Positions 3,502-32,985 of a stretch of DNA of 33,626 nt are shown here, piece after piece. Under the pieces are notes generated by a model, which searched no databases, was not told where the DNA came from, and saw nothing but the letters and a program-made list of their open reading frames with translations. The position numbers were made by a program, and so were the translations under genes. This DNA comes from Streptococcaceae bacterium (GTDB taxonomy: Bacteria; Bacillota; Bacilli; Lactobacillales; Streptococcaceae). The stretch's first letter is position 1; each line of letters begins with the position of its first letter. The stretch lies in assembly GCA_031253335.1 (NCBI GenBank), contig JAIRWF010000031.1:1-33626 (forward strand), given 5' to 3'.

Positions 3502-3894
3502 TTAGCTTCTTTCTTCAATCTGCTCAATATAGAGCACGCGTTTTGCAAACTTCAGCTCGTCCGCAACTTCCACAAAGTCGTCCTCATAGCGGATATACAT
3601 GACGAGCACCCCGCCGTCCGACTTAAAATGATGAGCAATGCAATAGCTCGTCGCATGATTCCCTAGGATTTCGGTTTGCCCATTCATGTGAAAGGTCTTT
3701 GGAAAAGCAGAGAGTGCCTCAGTAATTCCTGCCTGCAAGTCTGCTGCGCTTGTGAAAGTCGTCGTCGTGCCGTCTGGCATGAGGGTCGAATTTTCAAAGT
3801 CAGGCGCAAAAAGGGCAACTTGACCCGCTGCGTCTTTTTGATCTGCCAATAAAGCCCAGCGGTTGATGAGAGAAAGTGCTTCGTCTTTGTTCAT
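3502..3894 (-). CDS. SnoaL/NTF2-like protein in the suf operon
   Basis: A 130-residue protein with the SnoaL-like (NTF2-fold) pattern: an N-terminal helix MNKDEALSLINRWALLADQK, then LFAPDFENSTLMPDG, then a helix AGITEALSAF and strands with FHMNGQTEILGNHATSYCIAHH. Proteins of this fold bind small ligands or act as isomerases and hydrolases; no specific substrate can be read. Its ATG overlaps the sufC stop (TAATG), so it is translationally coupled. Its presence between sufC and sufD, next to the flavin-reductase-like gene, suggests the pair works together. Confidence 0.75.
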   Translation of the reverse strand: MNKDEALSLINRWALLADQKDAAGQVALFAPDFENSTLMPDGTTTTFTSAADLQAGITEALSAFPKTFHMNGQTEILGNHATSYCIAHHFKSDGGVLVMYIRYEDDFVEVADELKFAKRVLYIEQIEERS

Positions 3895-4676
3895 TATGCT
3901 TCTTCCTTGTAGTCAAGTCCTAGCTCCTCGGCAATTTTGGCGTAGCCTTCAACTTCAAGGCGTTTCGCGAGCTCGGCATCACCTGTTTTCACGACCTTGC
4001 CGTCCATGATGATGTGCACTACGTCAGGCGTGATGTAGTCGAGCAAACGCTGGTAGTGTGTGATAATCAGTGCACCAAATTTTTCGCCCCGCATGGCATT
4101 CACACCTTTGGAAACGACTTTCAAGGCATCAATATCAAGTCCTGAGTCGATTTCGTCGAGAATCGCAAAGACCGGCTCAATCATAAGGAGCTGCAAAATC
4201 TCATTACGCTTCTTCTCGCCGCCAGAAAAGCCTTCATTTAGATAGCGCTCCGCCATTTCTTCTTTCATGTTGAGGAGGCTCATGTTTTTGTCGAGCTTTT
4301 TGATAAAGTCCATGACGCTGATCTGATCGTCTTCGCTACGGCGCGAATTAATCGCAGCACGCAAGAATTCTGCATTGGTGATACCTGGAATTTCTGAAGG
4401 GTACTGCATGCCGAGGAAAAGACCTAGTCGCGCGCGTTCATCAACCGGCATCCCGACAACGTCTTTCCCGTCAAAAAGAATTTGCCCATCGGTCACTTCA
4501 TAAGTCGGATTGCCCATAATGGCCGCCGCAAGGGTCGATTTCCCGTTTCCGTTAGGTCCCATAATCGCGTGAATCTCGTTCGTATTCACGGTCATGTTGA
4601 TGCCTTTTAATATTTCCTTTTGCTCGCCGTTATCCTCGACCGAGACATGCAAGTTTTTGATTTCTAAAGTTGACAT
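3894..4676 (-). CDS. sufC: Fe-S cluster assembly ATPase SufC
   Basis: A 260-residue ABC ATPase of the SufBCD complex, cytosolic, which powers conformational change of the SufB-SufD scaffold. Walker A is GPNGNGKST (about residue 40), the signature is the SufC form FSGGEKKRNE, and Walker B plus D-loop is AILDEIDSGLDIDAL. Length is typical. ATG 4676 (MSTLEIKNL) has AGGAG upstream; the further upstream start at 4691 is less likely. It is the first gene of a sufC-SnoaL-flavin reductase-sufD operon, with a -10 TATACT at 4710-4715. Confidence 0.97.
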   Translation of the reverse strand: MSTLEIKNLHVSVEDNGEQKEILKGINMTVNTNEIHAIMGPNGNGKSTLAAAIMGNPTYEVTDGQILFDGKDVVGMPVDERARLGLFLGMQYPSEIPGITNAEFLRAAINSRRSEDDQISVMDFIKKLDKNMSLLNMKEEMAERYLNEGFSGGEKKRNEILQLLMIEPVFAILDEIDSGLDIDALKVVSKGVNAMRGEKFGALIITHYQRLLDYITPDVVHIIMDGKVVKTGDAELAKRLEVEGYAKIAEELGLDYKEEA

Positions 4677-4709
4677 TTTCTCTCCTGTCAAAAGTTTTTT
4701 ACATTTACT

Positions 4710-4743
4710 AGTATATCAAAAAAACGCTTAATCCGCGTTTTTT
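4710..4743 (-). promoter_or_regulatory. sufC -10 box with a hairpin just upstream
   Basis: On the minus strand TATACT (4710-4715) gives a leader of about 27 nt before sufC. No good -35 is seen at the right spacing. Instead a strong inverted repeat, seven A plus CGC paired with GCG plus six T (4718-4743), occupies that place. It could be a bidirectional terminator separating sufC from the sequence to its right. Confidence 0.5.
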
Positions 4744-4779
4744 CTGTCTCGAAACAATACTGTATGATAAGTCATAAGT

Positions 4780-5205
4780 TCATTTTCTTAGTGCGCTAAA
4801 TAGAACAGGCCAACTATTATATTTTTGTTGTAACATAATTTTTAAGCCAATCGGCCCCATAAAGTAACTAACAGTATAGGGCGTGTCTATCTACGCCACA
4901 TCATGTCGGGCTGTCCGCTCTGATAACCCTATTAGCATCGCTGTAAGGTGCAGACCGCACCAACAGCCATCCTATCGCTACGGCGCTTTAGCTAGATGAA
5001 AAAGCAGGGAGTTGCCATGCGACTTGCCAGCTTTGCTGGCTTAGCGAGCATGGACAGCGCAGCGCAAAGCGCGGAGATAGAGGAAACCTATACCCAATCA
5101 AGTATCTTCCAGTTGTTCTTGTGTCTCCTCCATAAATTGTTGCTAATTCATTTTCATCAATTTCTCTAAAATTGAGACCATCAAACTTTTTAGTTCTTTT
5201 CCCAT
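4780..5205 (-). pseudogene. Double-glycine-leader peptide (bacteriocin-like) gene, frameshifted and split by a MITE
   Basis: GGAG precedes an ATG at 5205. One base after the first few codons is missing (a run of 3 G or 5 A); with it restored the frame reads MGK..KKFDGLNFREID, then ENELATIYGG, a typical 27-residue double-glycine leader ending at 5126. The peptide continues DTRTTGRYLIG up to 5089, where the transposable element 4879-5088 begins. Removing the element and one copy of the TATA target duplication continues the frame as YTVSYFMGPIGLKIMLQQ, then KYNSWPVLFSALRK, stop at 4780. The predicted mature peptide is 43 residues. No ABC-peptidase transporter or immunity gene is next to it. The leader and reconstruction support a class II-type bacteriocin or peptide pheromone relic. 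Confidence 0.7.
4879..5088 (+). mobile_element. Short TIR element (MITE-like), copy 1
   Basis: The element runs from GGGCGTGTCTATCTACGC to GCGGAGATAGAGGAAACC. Its ends form an imperfect terminal inverted repeat (TCTATCTACGC against TCTATCTCCGC). TATA is directly repeated outside both ends (4875-4878 and 5089-5092). Bases about 5000-5088 match copy 2 (21962-22050) almost throughout. The interior has small hairpins such as GGTGC/GCACC. It encodes no transposase. It interrupts a bacteriocin-like ORF. The remaining part of the 4692-5337 gap holds that broken gene, the sufC promoter and the terminator at 5280. Confidence 0.75.
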
Positions 5206-5279
5206 TTTAACTCCATTTATGTTTTTTATTTAAAGCGTTGCAACTCTTTATAAATAAAGGATTCTATTCAAAAAATAAA

Positions 5280-5326
5280 AAAACAGCTAAACTATTAGCG
5301 ATTATGGAAAAAGTATTAGCGGTTTT
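5280..5326 (-). terminator. Terminator after the WecA/TagO-type gene
   Basis: On the minus strand AAAACCGCTAA pairs with TTAGCTGTTTT (one mismatch) over a loop that itself contains CGCTAATA, followed by a long T-rich tail (5270-5280). It lies just beyond the stop at 5338. Confidence 0.6.
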
Positions 5327-5337
5327 CTTAAAGAACA

Positions 5338-6534
5338 TTAAGATTTTTTGCGATATTTGGCAATAATGTTATTTCGATACTCAGAGTTTCCCATAAATTT
5401 AAAAATATTCATAATTGGATGTCTTCCCTTACCCCATATTCCAACTAACTCAATAAAGATTTCTAAACCAAACAATAAAGCAACTACTAAAAGTATCCCC
5501 CCTACTCGAGGAAGAACATTCAAAATAATTGATAGGGCCGCAAAAGTCGAAGCAATTCCGTAAATCACAAAGACGGCGCCACGTTGTGTGAAGCCCATTT
5601 GGAGCAAACGGTGATGAAGATGAGATTTATCCGGTAAATAGAACTTCTGGCGATTGAGCGTGCGTCGAATCGTTGCGACGACAGAGTCTGTGAGGGGAAC
5701 GCCTAAAATAATGAGCGGGGTAACGGTTGCTACAGCGGTTGCATTTTTTAAGCCTTGAAGCGACAAGACCGAGAGCATGAATCCGATAAAGAGCGCTCCG
5801 GTGTCGCCTAGATAGATGACTGCTGGGTTGTAGTTATAGGGGAAAAAGCCCGCAATGGCTGCGACCAAGACAAAAATCGTAATCGGCAGAAAAACATTTG
5901 GCACAGGAAGAAAGAAATAAGAGACAATCCCCATCGTGGTGAGGCTGATGATGGAAACCCCAGAGGCCAGACCGTCGAGACCGTCGATGATGTTAAAGGC
6001 ATTGGTAATCAGCACAATCCAGACGAAGGTCACAATAAAACTCAACCAAGACGGGAACTGCAAGAAGGGTCCATGAAACGGAATTTTGAAATTGTCAAAA
6101 TGCGTGTCCGTGAAAAACCAAATGACGAGAAAAGCAAGGAAGATACCAGCGATTTTGCCTAGCGGATGGAGTTCCTTGATGTCGTCAATGAGGCCTGTGA
6201 TGAGGACAATTCCGCCAGCGACAACGAGCGGCAAAACGTAATTAATATAATGCAAAAGTCCCTGGGCATGGTGCCAAGGGCCAGTTGGGATGACCGTTTT
6301 AATGAGAGGTGGTAAAAACACTAACGTTGCCAACGCAAAAGCAATGAAAATTGCTAAGCCACCGGCTGAGGGCATGGGTTTGGTGTTGATGCGACGCGCG
6401 TTGGGGACGTCAACCGCGCCGATTTTACGCGCCAAGATACGTACGAGGGGAGTTAATATCAGAGTGCACACAAAAGTCACGCCAAAAATGGCGATGAATT
6501 GAAATTTGAAAGACAGGTGAATAAATTGAGTCAT
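5338..6534 (-). CDS. UDP-GlcNAc:undecaprenyl-phosphate sugar-1-phosphate transferase (WecA/TagO/MraY family)
   Basis: A 398-residue polytopic membrane enzyme of the MraY/WecA superfamily. It transfers a sugar 1-phosphate (most likely GlcNAc-1-P) onto undecaprenyl phosphate, the first step of wall polysaccharide or teichoic acid synthesis. Family motifs appear in order: VPNARRINTKPMPSAGG (43-59), NIIDGLDGLASG (181-192), YLGDTGALFIG (241-251) and the cytosolic HLHHRLLQMG (305-314) that distinguishes WecA/TagO/RgpG types from MraY. About ten membrane helices are evident. A TGATATAAT box ends only 12 nt before the ATG, so the mRNA leader is very short and no clear RBS is present. It follows a GntR regulator gene by 28 bp. 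Confidence 0.9.
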   Translation of the reverse strand: MTQFIHLSFKFQFIAIFGVTFVCTLILTPLVRILARKIGAVDVPNARRINTKPMPSAGGLAIFIAFALATLVFLPPLIKTVIPTGPWHHAQGLLHYINYVLPLVVAGGIVLITGLIDDIKELHPLGKIAGIFLAFLVIWFFTDTHFDNFKIPFHGPFLQFPSWLSFIVTFVWIVLITNAFNIIDGLDGLASGVSIISLTTMGIVSYFFLPVPNVFLPITIFVLVAAIAGFFPYNYNPAVIYLGDTGALFIGFMLSVLSLQGLKNATAVATVTPLIILGVPLTDSVVATIRRTLNRQKFYLPDKSHLHHRLLQMGFTQRGAVFVIYGIASTFAALSIILNVLPRVGGILLVVALLFGLEIFIELVGIWGKGRHPIMNIFKFMGNSEYRNNIIAKYRKKS

Positions 6535-10054: not shown

Positions 10055-11565
10055 TAAGCTTGTCCTCCTTTGGGATTAAAGATGGTCTCTGAAACGGCTT
10101 TGCGGTCGATTTTTCCATTTTGGTTGAGCGGGAAATCAGCGACATAGACAAACTTTGTAGGCATCATGTAGTCCATAATGAGAGGCGCAAGACTTTCTTT
10201 GAGCTGTTTTGTAAAGTCGCGGTCAGAGAGAGTCGAATCATGCGGGGCTACCAGGACGGCGACAAGAGCTGTGACTTTATGCTCTGCGTTTTCTTGAGGG
10301 ACGACGAGGGCTTTCTCAACAGTGGGAAGGCTTGTGAGGTTGGCCTCAATGTCTTGAAGCTCAATGCGAAAACCATTGAACTTGACTTGAAAGTCGATTC
10401 GCCCGTTATAGTTTAAAACGCCATCGGAATCAAAGAAGCCTGCGTCGCCCGTATGATAAGCAGGCTTTCCGTCTCGTATGAAGAAAGCTTCTGCCGTTTT
10501 TTCGGAATTTTCAAAGTAGCCAGTTGCGACGGAATCCCCTGTAATGATGATTTCTCGATCAAGAATTTCTAATGTCACACCGGGCTTTGCGCGACCGATG
10601 GGGACACGATCGTAGTGATTTAAGAGCTCAGGGGTAACTTCAATGCTTGAAATCGCACCCGTTGCCTCGGTTGGCCCATAGGTGTTATAGACTGTCGCGT
10701 TGGGAAAGGCTTTAAGAAGTTTTTCTGCGGTTTTATGCGTCAGCTCTTCCCCACAGAAGATAAATTGGCGAAGTTCAGGATGCTCGTCCTGCGTGAAACT
10801 AGGATCTAAGAGACAAATATCCACGAATGAAGGCGTCGAAATCCAGGTGTTGATGATGGTGCTATTGAGCCGCTCAAAGAGGAGTTTGAAATTTGTAGTT
10901 TCCTCACGGCTCAAAGAGACCAAGGTACCTGCTGTGGTGAGACTTGGATAAATAGAAAAGATAGACAAATCAAAGCTATAAAGCGGTTGCTCCAGAAATT
11001 GATTCTTGTCAAATTTGACAAAGGCTGTATTCATCCAATTTGTGAAGGTCGCAAGATTGTCATGGCTTACAGCAACCCCTTTGGGGACGCCCGTTGTGCC
11101 TGATGTATAGATAATATAAGTTGTGTCTTTGCCAGATACAGCAGCTCTTGTGTCGATGGTACGTCCATCAAAATCAGCACGTCTGTCAAAGTTGACAGCC
11201 ACAACCTGCGGGTTGGCTGCAAACAAGGATTGATAAGACTCGTCCAACTCCGTTGTGAGCATTATCGCCGAAGGTTTTGCCGCGCCCAAAATCATCTCCG
11301 TGCGCTCAATCGGCGTGTGACTATCCACCGGAATATAGGCCCGCCCTGTCAAATTTGACGCAAGCATTGCCGCAAGGCTCAAAAAGTCATTCTTACCAAA
11401 GATTAAGACTGGCCTTTTGTTCACTTCAAGCCCTGTCAAATCTGACGCGAAACTATCCATCGCATCTAGTAAGTCCTGATAGCTGTAGCTGGCCTCTTTT
11501 TCTGCCACAGCAACACTTGTCAAATTTGACAAAGCATTCTCAAGTATGGTGTCTAATAGTTTCAT
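10054..11565 (-). CDS. dltA: D-alanine:D-alanyl carrier protein ligase DltA
   Basis: A 503-residue cytosolic adenylating enzyme that activates D-Ala and loads it onto DltC. The P-loop is YIIYTSGTTGVPKG (about 150-163); later come NTYGPTEATGAIS (A5), YHTGDAGF (A7) and the C-terminal lysine in LNQNGKIDRKAV. ATG 11565 (MKLLDT) has AGGAA at 6 nt; the ATG at 11571 is too close to that RBS. The first 560 bp carry five copies of the 14-bp palindrome, read as SNLT, VKFD, VNFD or SDLT depending on the frame. Family length is normal, so these copies replace rather than lengthen the sequence. Confidence 0.97.
   Translation of the reverse strand: MKLLDTILENALSNLTSVAVAEKEASYSYQDLLDAMDSFASDLTGLEVNKRPVLIFGKNDFLSLAAMLASNLTGRAYIPVDSHTPIERTEMILGAAKPSAIMLTTELDESYQSLFAANPQVVAVNFDRRADFDGRTIDTRAAVSGKDTTYIIYTSGTTGVPKGVAVSHDNLATFTNWMNTAFVKFDKNQFLEQPLYSFDLSIFSIYPSLTTAGTLVSLSREETTNFKLLFERLNSTIINTWISTPSFVDICLLDPSFTQDEHPELRQFIFCGEELTHKTAEKLLKAFPNATVYNTYGPTEATGAISSIEVTPELLNHYDRVPIGRAKPGVTLEILDREIIITGDSVATGYFENSEKTAEAFFIRDGKPAYHTGDAGFFDSDGVLNYNGRIDFQVKFNGFRIELQDIEANLTSLPTVEKALVVPQENAEHKVTALVAVLVAPHDSTLSDRDFTKQLKESLAPLIMDYMMPTKFVYVADFPLNQNGKIDRKAVSETIFNPKGGQA
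11007..11531. repeat. Cluster of five 14-bp palindromes inside dltA
   Basis: Copies at 11007-11020 and 11518-11531 (perfect TGTCAAATTTGACA), 11184-11197 (centre AAGT), 11347-11360 (last A to G) and 11434-11447 (TGTCAAATCTGACG). They are encoded in different reading frames of dltA, so conservation is at the DNA and not the protein level. Confidence 0.85.
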
Positions 11566-18736: not shown

Positions 18737-18823
18737 TGTCAAATTTGACAACTTAGTCCAAATCCGTGAAGCGATAAGGCAAAAGCTCTCCAAGCGTCAT
18801 CGTCTTAGCTGTCAAATCTGACG
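18737..18823. repeat. 14-bp palindromes at the end of cdd
   Basis: TGTCAAATTTGACA at 18737-18750 directly after the cdd stop, and TGTCAAATCTGACG at 18810-18823 inside cdd, where it reads SSDLT. Confidence 0.85.
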
Positions 18824-19142
18824 AGAGAAGCGTCACAGACATCTCGGGCGGGCAAAATTCTGACAAGACTTGCCGACAAGCACCACAAGGGCTAATTGGA
18901 TCTTTTGTCTCCCCATAAATTGTCAGAGACTTAAATTCTCTGACACCTTCGCTGATGGCTTTAAAAATCGCCGTCCGCTCTGCGCAATTCGTCAGACCAA
19001 AGCTGATATTCTCTATATTGCAGCCCGTAAAAAGCCTTCCGTCAGAAGATTCGAGCACTGCACCCACACGAAAATGCGAGTAGGGCACATAGGCGGCCTC
19101 GCTCGCTTTTTTCGCTAATGCTGCTAAATCAGTAGTTGCCAC
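18753..19142 (-). CDS. cdd: Cytidine deaminase
   Basis: A 129-residue cytosolic zinc enzyme converting cytidine and deoxycytidine to uridine and deoxyuridine. The catalytic motif NCAERTAIF (about 52-60, Cys ligand and catalytic Glu) and PCGACRQVL (two Cys ligands, about 84-92) are intact. The start is a GTG at 19142 with GGAAGG upstream at 11 nt, overlapping deoC by 14 nt. An inverted repeat of 9-bp arms, TGTCAGAGA/TCTCTGACA, lies inside the gene at 18921-18945. Confidence 0.95.
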
Positions 19143-19797
19143 TTGCTGTCACGCCTTCCATAATCGCAACCCCCGCCGAGCAGCCAAGTCGCGACGCACC
19201 CGCTGCAATCATGGCTTCTGCTTCCTCACGGTTATGAATCCCGCCCGAGGCTTTCACGCCCATGTCAGGACCAACGGTTTCCCGCATAAGTTTGACGTCT
19301 TCGACCGTCGCACCACCCGTTGAAAAGCCAGTCGAGGTCTTGACAAAGTCTGCGCCGACTTCTTTCGCGATTTGACAGGCTTTGACCTTCTCGTCATCTG
19401 TTAAAAGGCAGGTCTCAATGATGACTTTCAAGATCTTGTCAGATTTGACAGCATTGACTGCTGCAATATCCGATTTGACAAGATCCCAGTTGCCTGATTT
19501 CACAGCGCCGACGTTTATAACCATGTCAATCTCATCAGCACCCGCTGCAATCGCAGATTGCGCTTCAACCGCTTTTACCGCTGATGTATTGGCGCCTAGA
19601 GGAAAGCCAATGACGGTACAAGTTGCAACACCTGAGCCTGCTAATTCTTTTGCGGTCAGTTCCACCCAAGTGGGGTTGATACAGACACTCGCAAAGTGGT
19701 ATTTTTTCGCTTCGTCAATAATTTTCTTCACTGCCGTTTCATTGGCTTCAGGTTTTAAAATGGTGTGGTCAATGTATGTGTTAATAGCTTCAGTCAT
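19129..19797 (-). CDS. deoC: Deoxyribose-phosphate aldolase
   Basis: A 222-residue class I aldolase cleaving 2-deoxyribose 5-phosphate to glyceraldehyde 3-phosphate and acetaldehyde. The conserved Asp is in [14 protein letters not shown], the Schiff-base Lys in [13 protein letters not shown], and a second Lys in [16 protein letters not shown] precedes ATG 19797. It carries palindrome copies at 19437-19450 (reads VKSD) and a degraded one at 19467-19480. Confidence 0.97.
19437..19480. repeat. 14-bp palindrome and a degraded copy inside deoC
   Basis: TGTCAGATTTGACA at 19437-19450, and TATCCGATTTGACA at 19467-19480, exactly 30 bp (10 codons) apart and in the same frame, both reading VKSD in the protein. 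Confidence 0.75.
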
Positions 19798-21961: not shown

Positions 21962-22170
21962 GGTTCCCTCTATCTTCGCGCTTTGCGCTGCGCTGTCCAT
22001 GCTCGCTAAGCAAGCATAGCTGGCAAGTCGCATGGCAACGCCCTGCTTTTCGCCCAACCACGCGACAGCGCTTGCTTGACGCAGGCTGGGACTTGTTTCA
22101 CAAGTCTCTATCTACCACCTTGGACGAATCGTCCAAGCAAGAAAAAGCAAATCGGTTTTTAGACACGCCC
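21962..22170 (-). mobile_element. Short TIR element (MITE-like), copy 2
   Basis: Read on the minus strand, it starts GGGCGTGTCTAAAAACC and ends AGATAGAGGGAACC. TTCTTT is directly repeated at both flanks (21956-21961 and 22172-22177). The GGTT end matches copy 1 over about 90 bp; the GGGCG end matches copy 3. The interior has a perfect hairpin CTTGGACGA/TCGTCCAAG. The GGGCGTGTCTAA end supplies the last codons and stop of the MFS gene. No transposase is encoded. It fills most of the 21861-22158 gap. Confidence 0.75.
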
Positions 22171-25718: not shown

Positions 25719-25732
25719 TGTCAAATTTGACA
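25719..25732. repeat. 14-bp palindrome between rsmC-like gene and pdp
   Basis: TGTCAAATTTGACA; with flanks the perfect palindrome extends to 20 bp (25717-25736). It lies between the methyltransferase stop and the pdp RBS and could form a hairpin in the intercistronic mRNA. Confidence 0.9.
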
Positions 25733-25737
25733 AGTCC

Positions 25738-26415
25738 TTATCCTTTTTTCACACTTCTTAAAATCCAATAACCCTTATCTTGCTTGACTTTTTCGACATT
25801 GCCAAAGACTTCTTCCAGTTTTTTGACGGCAGACGGTGCGCCTTGCTTTTTTTGAATCACGACCCAGAGGCTCCCGCCAGGCGTCAGGTGCTCAAAACTT
25901 TCTGACAAAATCCGGTGCACCACTTCTTTTCCCGCACGAATGGGCGGATTCGTCACGACGTCAGAAAATTTCTGCTCTGTTAGCGCTGACAAGCCGTCAG
26001 ACATCAGAAATTCAGCAGTTGTCAAATTTGACAGACTATCAGAAATCTCGTCAAGCCTTTGCAAACTTTCTGACAAGCCGCTAGAAGTTATCGTCAGATT
26101 TGACAAGGCATTTTTCTGCGCCAAATCCAGTGCTCGTGGGTTGACATCCACCCCTGTCAAGGACAGCCCATAGCTTTTGGCAAGCGCAATTCCAATGACG
26201 CCATAGCCGCAACCCACATCGAGCAATGTCCCTTCGCCGACTGAGGGCTCAAAAGTCTCAATCAGGAGGCGACTCCCGAAATCCACACCCGACTTGCTGA
26301 AGACCCCATTATCCGTCCAAAAGCGAAAATCCTCTCCCAGCAAGCGCACGCGCAATTCCTTCGGGTCGCTTGCCAAGTCGCGATTGTCCTCAAAATACAT
26401 ATTGGTCTCAGCCAT
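25738..26415 (-). CDS. RsmC-like class I SAM-dependent methyltransferase with a 24-codon insertion
   Basis: A 225-residue protein with the SAM motif LLDVGCGYGVIGI (about 64-76), acidic loop GVDVNPRAL and the catalytic motif TNPPIRAGK (about 155-163), as in single-domain RsmC-like N2-guanine methyltransferases. Such proteins usually have about 200 residues. The excess lies at about 104-128, between two LSNLT segments encoded by palindrome copies 72 bp apart. ATG 26415 (MAETNMYF) has TGCTACAAT 7 nt upstream. First gene of the pdp transcript. Confidence 0.88.
   Translation of the reverse strand: MAETNMYFEDNRDLASDPKELRVRLLGEDFRFWTDNGVFSKSGVDFGSRLLIETFEPSVGEGTLLDVGCGYGVIGIALAKSYGLSLTGVDVNPRALDLAQKNALSNLTITSSGLSESLQRLDEISDSLSNLTTAEFLMSDGLSALTEQKFSDVVTNPPIRAGKEVVHRILSESFEHLTPGGSLWVVIQKKQGAPSAVKKLEEVFGNVEKVKQDKGYWILRSVKKG
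26020..26105. repeat. Two palindromes bracketing extra codons in the methyltransferase gene
   Basis: TGTCAAATTTGACA at 26020-26033 and CGTCAGATTTGACA at 26092-26105. They are 72 bp (24 codons) apart and in the same frame, each reading LSNLT. Several partial motifs (TTCTGACAA) lie between and around them. Confidence 0.85.
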
Positions 26416-26422
26416 TTTCCTT

Positions 26423-26431
26423 ATTGTAGCA
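26423..26431 (-). promoter_or_regulatory. Extended -10 box 7 nt before the RsmC-like start
   Basis: TGCTACAAT, then AAGGAAA and ATG on the minus strand. A start site at the usual distance would leave no leader. Confidence 0.55.
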
Positions 26432-26494
26432 CAAAAATCACCCAAAAAAATCAGATTTCTTCACATTTTAAGCTCATTTCAAGGCATTTAGAGT

Positions 26495-26500
26495 TATTAT
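26495..26500 (+). promoter_or_regulatory. Candidate -10 box for the (AG)13 ORF
   Basis: TATTAT followed by AGATCTA and the ATG at 26508. No Shine-Dalgarno is visible. Confidence 0.4.
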
Positions 26501-26554
26501 AGATCTAATGAAGCACACGATTGTGCACGTATCGTATCTCTCTGAACATGCACC

Positions 26555-26580
26555 AGAGAGAGAGAGAGAGAGAGAGAGAG
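26555..26580 (+). repeat. (AG)13 dinucleotide tract
   Basis: Thirteen uninterrupted AG units, located right after two possible start codons. Slipped-strand changes of one unit would alter the reading frame into the signal-peptide-like sequence. Confidence 0.97.
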
Positions 26581-26663
26581 TTTTCGGCGCTGGAAATCCG
26601 GTAAGCGCTGGCTTTTTGCGTCCTCAGCCTTGACCGTCCTCCTTTTTAGAAATCTTGCCCCTC

Positions 26664-26707
26664 TGTCAAATCTGACAGGTCTTCCAAACCCCTTGTCAAA
26701 TCTGACA
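26664..26707. repeat. Two 14-bp palindromes in the surface-protein-like ORF
   Basis: TGTCAAATCTGACA at 26664-26677 and again at 26694-26707, 30 bp apart and in frame, giving PLSNLTGLPN followed by PLSNLTAQSL. Confidence 0.9.
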
Positions 26708-26856
26708 GCCCAATCCCTCACCGTCACTGCCTCCTCTGGCACCTGGGGCACCGCCATAGCAGGCCTTGGAAGTCTTCTCATCCGTAAGAAAAAACGGAAA
26801 ATCATCCCTTACAGCTATATCCGCAATCGAAAAATCATCTATCTCCCTGTTAAATA

Positions 26857-32780: not shown

Positions 32781-32920
32781 TTGTCAGATTTGACAGAGGA
32801 TTGAAATGCATCTAAGAGTCTTGTCAGATTTGATAGGTTGTTAAAATGTAGTTTGAGAGTACTTGTCAAATTTGACAGAGAGTTGAAATGCATCTGAGAG
32901 TCTTGTCAAATCTGATAACA
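32781..32920. repeat. Tandem array of palindrome-containing 40-42-bp units upstream of racE-rdgB
   Basis: Four palindromes at 32782, 32822, 32864 and 32904 (TGTCAGATTTGACA, TGTCAGATTTGATA, TGTCAAATTTGACA, TGTCAAATCTGATA). The intervening stretches are also related (GAAATGCATCTAAGAGTC and GAAATGCATCTGAGAGTC). A fifth copy at 32966 lies in the yneF terminator. Confidence 0.9.
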
Positions 32921-32952
32921 GCACTTTTAACACCTAAAAAAGTGTCAAAATC

Positions 32953-32985
32953 AAAAAACAAGCCTCGTCAAATTTGACAGCTTAT
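32953..32985 (-). terminator. yneF terminator built on the palindrome
   Basis: On the minus strand AAGC, the palindrome TGTCAAATTTGACG, then AGGCTTG and six T. The palindrome forms the upper stem and AAGC/GCTT the base. Confidence 0.7.

Follow-up and report, generated by a model that had tools for sequence, protein, structure and literature searches.

RUP and BOX are MITEs, or small dispersed repeats, of streptococci. The MITE-like element described here resembles them in being small, non-coding and structured, in occurring in dozens of copies, and in having related termini and a target duplication, but it constitutes a sequence family of its own with a 4-bp A+T-rich duplication. It lies inside a gene for a peptide with a double-glycine (GG) leader, whose closest described counterparts are the class II (unmodified) bacteriocins, the streptococcal ComC or competence-stimulating peptides, and Rgg-regulated loci such as pneumococcal rtg. 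That GG-peptide loci decay is established, and the process is common in bacteria of this kind; one example is the transporter gene of pneumococcal rtg, rtgA, which was found disrupted in 59.1% of tabulated genomes (PMC7018657). The pseudogene we report is real and of this known kind, ordinary as a type of locus, and its product is an orphan.

The window, that is, the whole stretch of 33,626 nucleotides that we analysed, corresponds to contig C36 of a draft assembly totalling 1,656,584 bases and 81.6% complete, and the genus comparison set consisted of four other species, referred to here as congeners. Gene orders of the streptococcal type, and streptococcal ComC peptides in genomes of the same family, point to Streptococcaceae. 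The broken peptide gene sits between two housekeeping genes, tagO and sufC (Table 1). The adjacency of tagO and sufC is a conserved order that recurs in several further genera of this family; in the three congeners with both genes located the two lie apart, and the sequence read next to each of them contained no version of the peptide.

Table 1. Features of the broken peptide gene and its surroundings (window coordinates)
Feature	Position	Strand	Evidence
tagO, TagO/WecA/RgpG-type glycosyl-1-phosphate transferase gene, upstream neighbour	5338..6534	-	TIGR02380 118.8 bits, below the curated cut-off of 326; E 2.9e-34
Upstream region common with the C10 GG-peptide cluster; weak GCTAA/TTAGC hairpin and T-run, then TTATAAAGA	5223..5311	-	75% identity, E 7.2e-7 (own genome)
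Ribosome-binding site GGAG (5211-5214) and ATG start (5203-5205), out of frame with the leader	5203..5214	-	sequence; frame stops after 20 codons
Double-glycine leader core NFREIDENELATIYGG	5126..5173	-	TIGR01847 and PF03047 above cut-off; PF10439 whole-genome match; leader profile 26.6 bits
Mature peptide, first part, DTRTTGRYLIG	5093..5125	-	translation
Right target-site duplication TATA	5089..5092	.	end alignment of copies
MITE-like element, 210 bp, ends GGGCGTGTCTATCT ... AGATAGAGGAAACC	4879..5088	+	about 40 dispersed copies, consensus ends, duplications
Left target-site duplication TATA	4875..4878	.	end alignment of copies
Mature peptide, second part, YTVSYFMGPIGLKIMLQQKYNSWPVLFSALRK, and TGA stop	4780..4874	-	translation; first four bases from one TATA copy
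Terminator-like hairpin 3' of the peptide gene, before sufC	4718..4744	-	fold -10.1 kcal/mol, z -3.56
sufC, downstream neighbour	3894..4691	-	67-85% identical to SufC along almost the whole query in most of 40 genomes searched; start may alternatively be 4676

The element that interrupts the gene has no coding capacity, is dispersed in many copies and shows related termini with short target duplications; it can fairly be called MITE-like. A BLAST search of its own genome returned 59 segments at E<=0.001 in about 40 places. When the ends were lined up from 39 further regions of that genome, the consensus was GGGCGTGTCTATCT on one side and AGATAGAGGTAACC on the other; the termini GGGCGTGTCTATCT and, read from the opposite end, GGTTACCTCTATCT form imperfect inverted repeats with TCTATCT in register. 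The TATA duplication around the window copy is perfect, and perfect 4-bp duplications flank 20 of the 30 copies with both ends recognisable, whereas 3.5 identical flanks would be expected by chance and the maximum in 2000 shuffled pairings was 10. These duplications are mostly A+T-rich (TAAA, TTAA, TATC, ATTA). Copies with both ends range from 173 to 454 bp, and at four loci (L030, L043, L045 and L047) longer versions of about 450 bp have both ends in common with the others and a different middle part; the repeat family therefore has several length classes. The window also contains a partial second copy at 21962-22050, just 3' of an MFS transporter gene; it is 89 bp long, 94% identical and in the opposite orientation.

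Other repeats are also present in the window. The short palindromic motif TTGTCARATYTGACAAG is strongly over-represented at 11012-11525, 18742-19444, 25724-26701 and 32787-32973, and TCAAATTTGACA occurs 14 times in the 33.6 kb, counting both strands, within genes (as LSNLT or KFDK residues) as well as between them. TCAAATTTGACA was found 25 times in 92 kb of other loci of the same genome, some of them overlapping, twice in 76 kb of congeners, and never in sufC loci of other genera and families, which together make up 101 kb. The motif has the look of a dispersed repeat specific to the species, or of a signal of the uptake or binding type. An (AG)n/(CT)n run, among the commonest 9- to 12-mers of the window, is located at about 26497-26600, a position judged from repeated SLSLSLSL residues in the reading frame 26497-26805.

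With the element removed, the empty site translates on the minus strand as ...FREIDENELATIYGG DTRTTGRYLIG-YTVSYFMGPIGLKIMLQQKYNSWPVLFSALRK*, in frame and with its stop at 4780-4782. The reconstructed precursor has about 70 residues, made up of a 27-residue leader and a 43-residue mature part that is cationic (net charge +5) and rich in glycine and aromatic residues. The leader frame ends in IYGG and has no ATG, GTG or TTG start; the ATG that follows the ribosome-binding site is one base out of register with it, and the gene therefore carries two lesions. Consequently, no intact frame runs from a start codon with a ribosome-binding site, since the frame is off by one and is cut by the element. 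Either of these lesions would suffice on its own to kill the gene, and the missing base near the start could be an error of the draft assembly instead of a real lesion. Because the mature part is without homologues, the downstream half is read from its frame and its 31 open codons; 6% of dinucleotide shuffles are open over the same length, and the openness by itself is weak evidence for the reading. The original prediction had placed the element at the same coordinates with a TATA copy, had joined DTRTTGRYLIG in frame to the downstream part with a stop at 4780, and had noted one missing base between the ATG with its ribosome-binding site and a leader ending in IYGG. The dispersed copies and their duplications, the empty-site translation and the register of the two frames bear out each of these points, and the curated models presented below do the same for its proposal of a broken GG-leader peptide gene.

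The leader itself constitutes strong evidence, at the level of sequence, for a true GG-leader gene. TIGR01847 scores it at 18.9 bits against a cut-off of 15.7, and PF03047 (Pfam ComC) at 20.6 against a gathering cut-off of 20.4, in a match limited to the leader and three further residues. The whole protein falls short of the gathering score of PF10439 (Bacteriocin_IIc; 17.7 bits against 27.1), as do the intact peptides encoded on contig C10 of the same genome (G000). A six-frame scan of the 1.66 Mb genome with this model returned four matches only, namely the window leader (5126-5173) and, on contig C10, a single cluster whose three intact GG peptides lie within 2.6 kb. A narrower HMM trained only on the paralogues of the congeners scored the window leader poorly (E 11), because those paralogues are very alike. 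We also built a broad leader profile, which excludes the window leader and adds six leaders from other family genomes to those of the congeners; it scored the window leader at 26.6 bits and the runner-up among window segments at 8.0, a gap of about 18 bits, and on 542,444 residues of six-frame translation a single clearly non-GG-leader segment exceeded 12.2 bits (L075, 19.0). Since this broad profile was made after the narrow HMM had failed, we regard the curated models (TIGR01847, PF03047 and PF10439) as the primary evidence.

A line of evidence that is independent of the leader, and new beyond the first observation, comes from the upstream region. The 90 bp located 5' of the window gene (5311-5223) resemble the 90 bp located 5' of the C10 cluster (Table 1), with TTATAAAGA at equal distance in both. 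A match of the same region to congener G001 (E 1.8e-5) was rejected as an apparently unrelated terminator with a T-run; E-values are therefore inflated in this A+T-rich stretch, and for this reason the C10 match was checked by shuffling, in which the pair had a local score of 61 and none of 1000 dinucleotide shuffles scored above 35. Upstream regions of ten other GG genes from the genus, compared in the same way, revealed no resemblance. The core pattern TCGCTAATA-N(1-8)-GCTGTTTTTT occurs in two places only in the genome, at the window gene and at the C10 cluster, and is absent from the four congeners, while a reversed control pattern was found nowhere; as that pattern derives from the two upstream regions under comparison, the match is properly judged by the shuffle test. 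We read the common stretch as a putative shared promoter region, with the weak hairpin and T-run possibly marking the end of the upstream transcript, and the match suggests that the window gene belonged to the same set as the C10 cluster. Control of the ComE/BlpR type through a 21-bp-spaced repeat, CGCTAATA, was considered and dropped as unsupported because no LytTR regulator gene was found in the draft genome (81.6% complete), because the first copy is not kept 5' of the C10 cluster, and because the second copy is part of the weak hairpin with a T-run after tagO.

The C10 cluster (L126, positions 44000-50613 of that contig) comprises three intact GG peptides, an adjoining Rgg-type regulator gene (PF21259) and a glycosyltransferase whose match to the SunS peptide S-glycosyltransferase stays below threshold (74 bits against 350), and from its gene content it is possibly a glycosylated bacteriocin locus. 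Similar glycosyltransferases lie beside GG peptides in congener G003 (L127, L132). Many GG peptides lie beside peptidase-containing transporters in congeners G003 and G004 (PF03412 being present in two of the four congeners), and the transporter on contig C22 of G004 scores 1105.9 bits with TIGR01193. In the window's own draft genome, 81.6% complete, the peptidase C39 domain (PF03412) was not found. Beside the window gene we saw no transporter, immunity-like reading frame or regulator, and the window contains no Rgg gene.

The original prediction pointed to intact copies in related genomes, or next to peptidase-containing ABC transporters, as the place to look for the peptide, and here the searches gave no support. 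No intact copy of the joined peptide was found in the 4 congeners, in 335 family genomes or in 395 order genomes, nor in genome contigs, plasmids, phages and viral contigs. As for homologues of its two parts, the joined peptide gave convincing matches to leaders only, whereas for the mature part there were none in the genus, family and order genomes, contigs, plasmids, phages, viral contigs and solved structures. The best unrelated matches of the joined peptide in the whole-genome search had E-values of 0.01-0.02; a match in Parashewanella (L021) was rejected, as it covers residues 17-37 only and is mostly leader. Against 25 other GG peptides the mature part showed weak, compositional resemblances only. 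Thus, by all these comparisons, the mature peptide is an orphan, and of the unfamiliar bacteriocin or signalling peptide that had been proposed, the orphan mature part and the GG leader stand; between the two functions, the sequence evidence leans towards a bacteriocin.

Taken together, our data make it likely that the locus is a dead monocistronic gene for a GG-leader peptide, probably a bacteriocin made with the C10 cluster, and that it was killed by the element and the frame break. The small minus-strand gene, which has an upstream region and a terminator-like hairpin of its own, would once have produced the precursor reconstructed above; cleavage after GG and export of the peptide would have fallen to a peptidase-containing ABC transporter encoded at another locus. 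The common upstream region suggests that this peptide was produced together with the peptides of the C10 cluster. The 210-bp element entered a TATA site within the mature-peptide codons, the start codon is now one frame off the leader, and on this reading the gene is dead. The element, its duplication, the in-frame join, the true leader, the common upstream region and the frame break are seen in the sequence, while past secretion and a bacteriocin role are what we infer from this reconstruction. A bacteriocin appears more likely than a pheromone because the mature part is cationic and has 43 residues, because the upstream region is held in common with a cluster that resembles a bacteriocin cluster, and because the draft genome yielded no LytTR regulator. 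We consider it doubtful that the gene represents a separate family of stand-alone GG peptides at the tagO-sufC junction, co-produced with a distant cluster by way of a common upstream region, silenced here by the MITE and intact in unsampled sister strains.

The main rival reading, prompted by how the leader scores and by the D-x-R start, is that the product of the dead gene was not a bacteriocin but a ComC-like pheromone, acting in competence or in bacteriocin induction. The leader does exceed the Pfam ComC cut-off, the mature part begins D-T-R (compare the streptococcal CSPs DSRIRMGF... and DRRDPRG...), and a solitary position such as this gene has is compatible with an inducer. However, the NCBIfam ComC equivalog NF033214 (ComC_Streptocco) scores 14.7 against a cut-off of 50, the mature part is far from the 16-17 residues of the compared ComC sequences, its alignment with two ComC mature parts is no better than with shuffles, and the window contains no comDE-like neighbours. 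The mature length and the failure to find a LytTR gene in the 81.6%-complete draft genome both lean against a ComC-type pheromone, which we judge unlikely. It is very unlikely that the gene is alive, the frame break being an assembly error or overcome by slippage on a run of As and the element supplying a new C-terminus (DTRTTGRYLIG-YRFPLSPRFALRCPCSLSQQSWQVAWQLPAFSSS) to a chimeric exported peptide: the leader frame continues unbroken into the element as a 72-residue open frame, but a classical slippery heptamer is lacking, the G being preceded by just five As, and two lesions in one small gene are most simply explained by decay. Finally, a leader-like stretch in AT-rich intergenic DNA followed by a coincidental open frame would fit a downstream half that lacks homologues and is open to a degree seen in 6% of shuffles, but the curated cut-offs passed, the rarity of PF10439 matches in the genome, the distance of the leader from any other window segment and the upstream region common with the C10 cluster make such chance extremely unlikely.

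On the preferred reading of a dead bacteriocin-like peptide gene, the MITE-like repeat inside it has left the earlier reading of an orphan peptide recoverable, and the broken gene illustrates the fast turnover of such peptide genes in a little-known genus. Moreover, this solitary peptide gene and a cluster far away have an upstream region in common, the control of which is testable.

Compared with class II bacteriocins (PF10439/TIGR01847), the window gene has a leader of the same F-x-E-[LI]-x-x-x-E-L-x-x-I-x-GG type, a mature part that is likewise cationic and rich in glycine and aromatic residues, and an upstream region in common with a GG-peptide cluster; it differs in being broken twice, in missing the full-length PF10439 cut-off, in having no adjacent immunity or transporter gene, and in having a mature part without relatives. 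With the streptococcal ComC peptides (PF03047, NF033214) it shares the leader type and the D-x-R start of the mature part, but that part is far longer, no comDE is evident in the window and the equivalog cut-off is missed. In comparison with Rgg-regulated loci like pneumococcal rtg (PMC7018657), the window gene is different in that it stands alone, without an Rgg gene in the window. The likeness to such loci is found instead on contig C10 and in congener G004, both of which have several GG peptides with variable mature parts together with an Rgg gene, accompanied in G004, though not on C10, by a peptidase-containing transporter.
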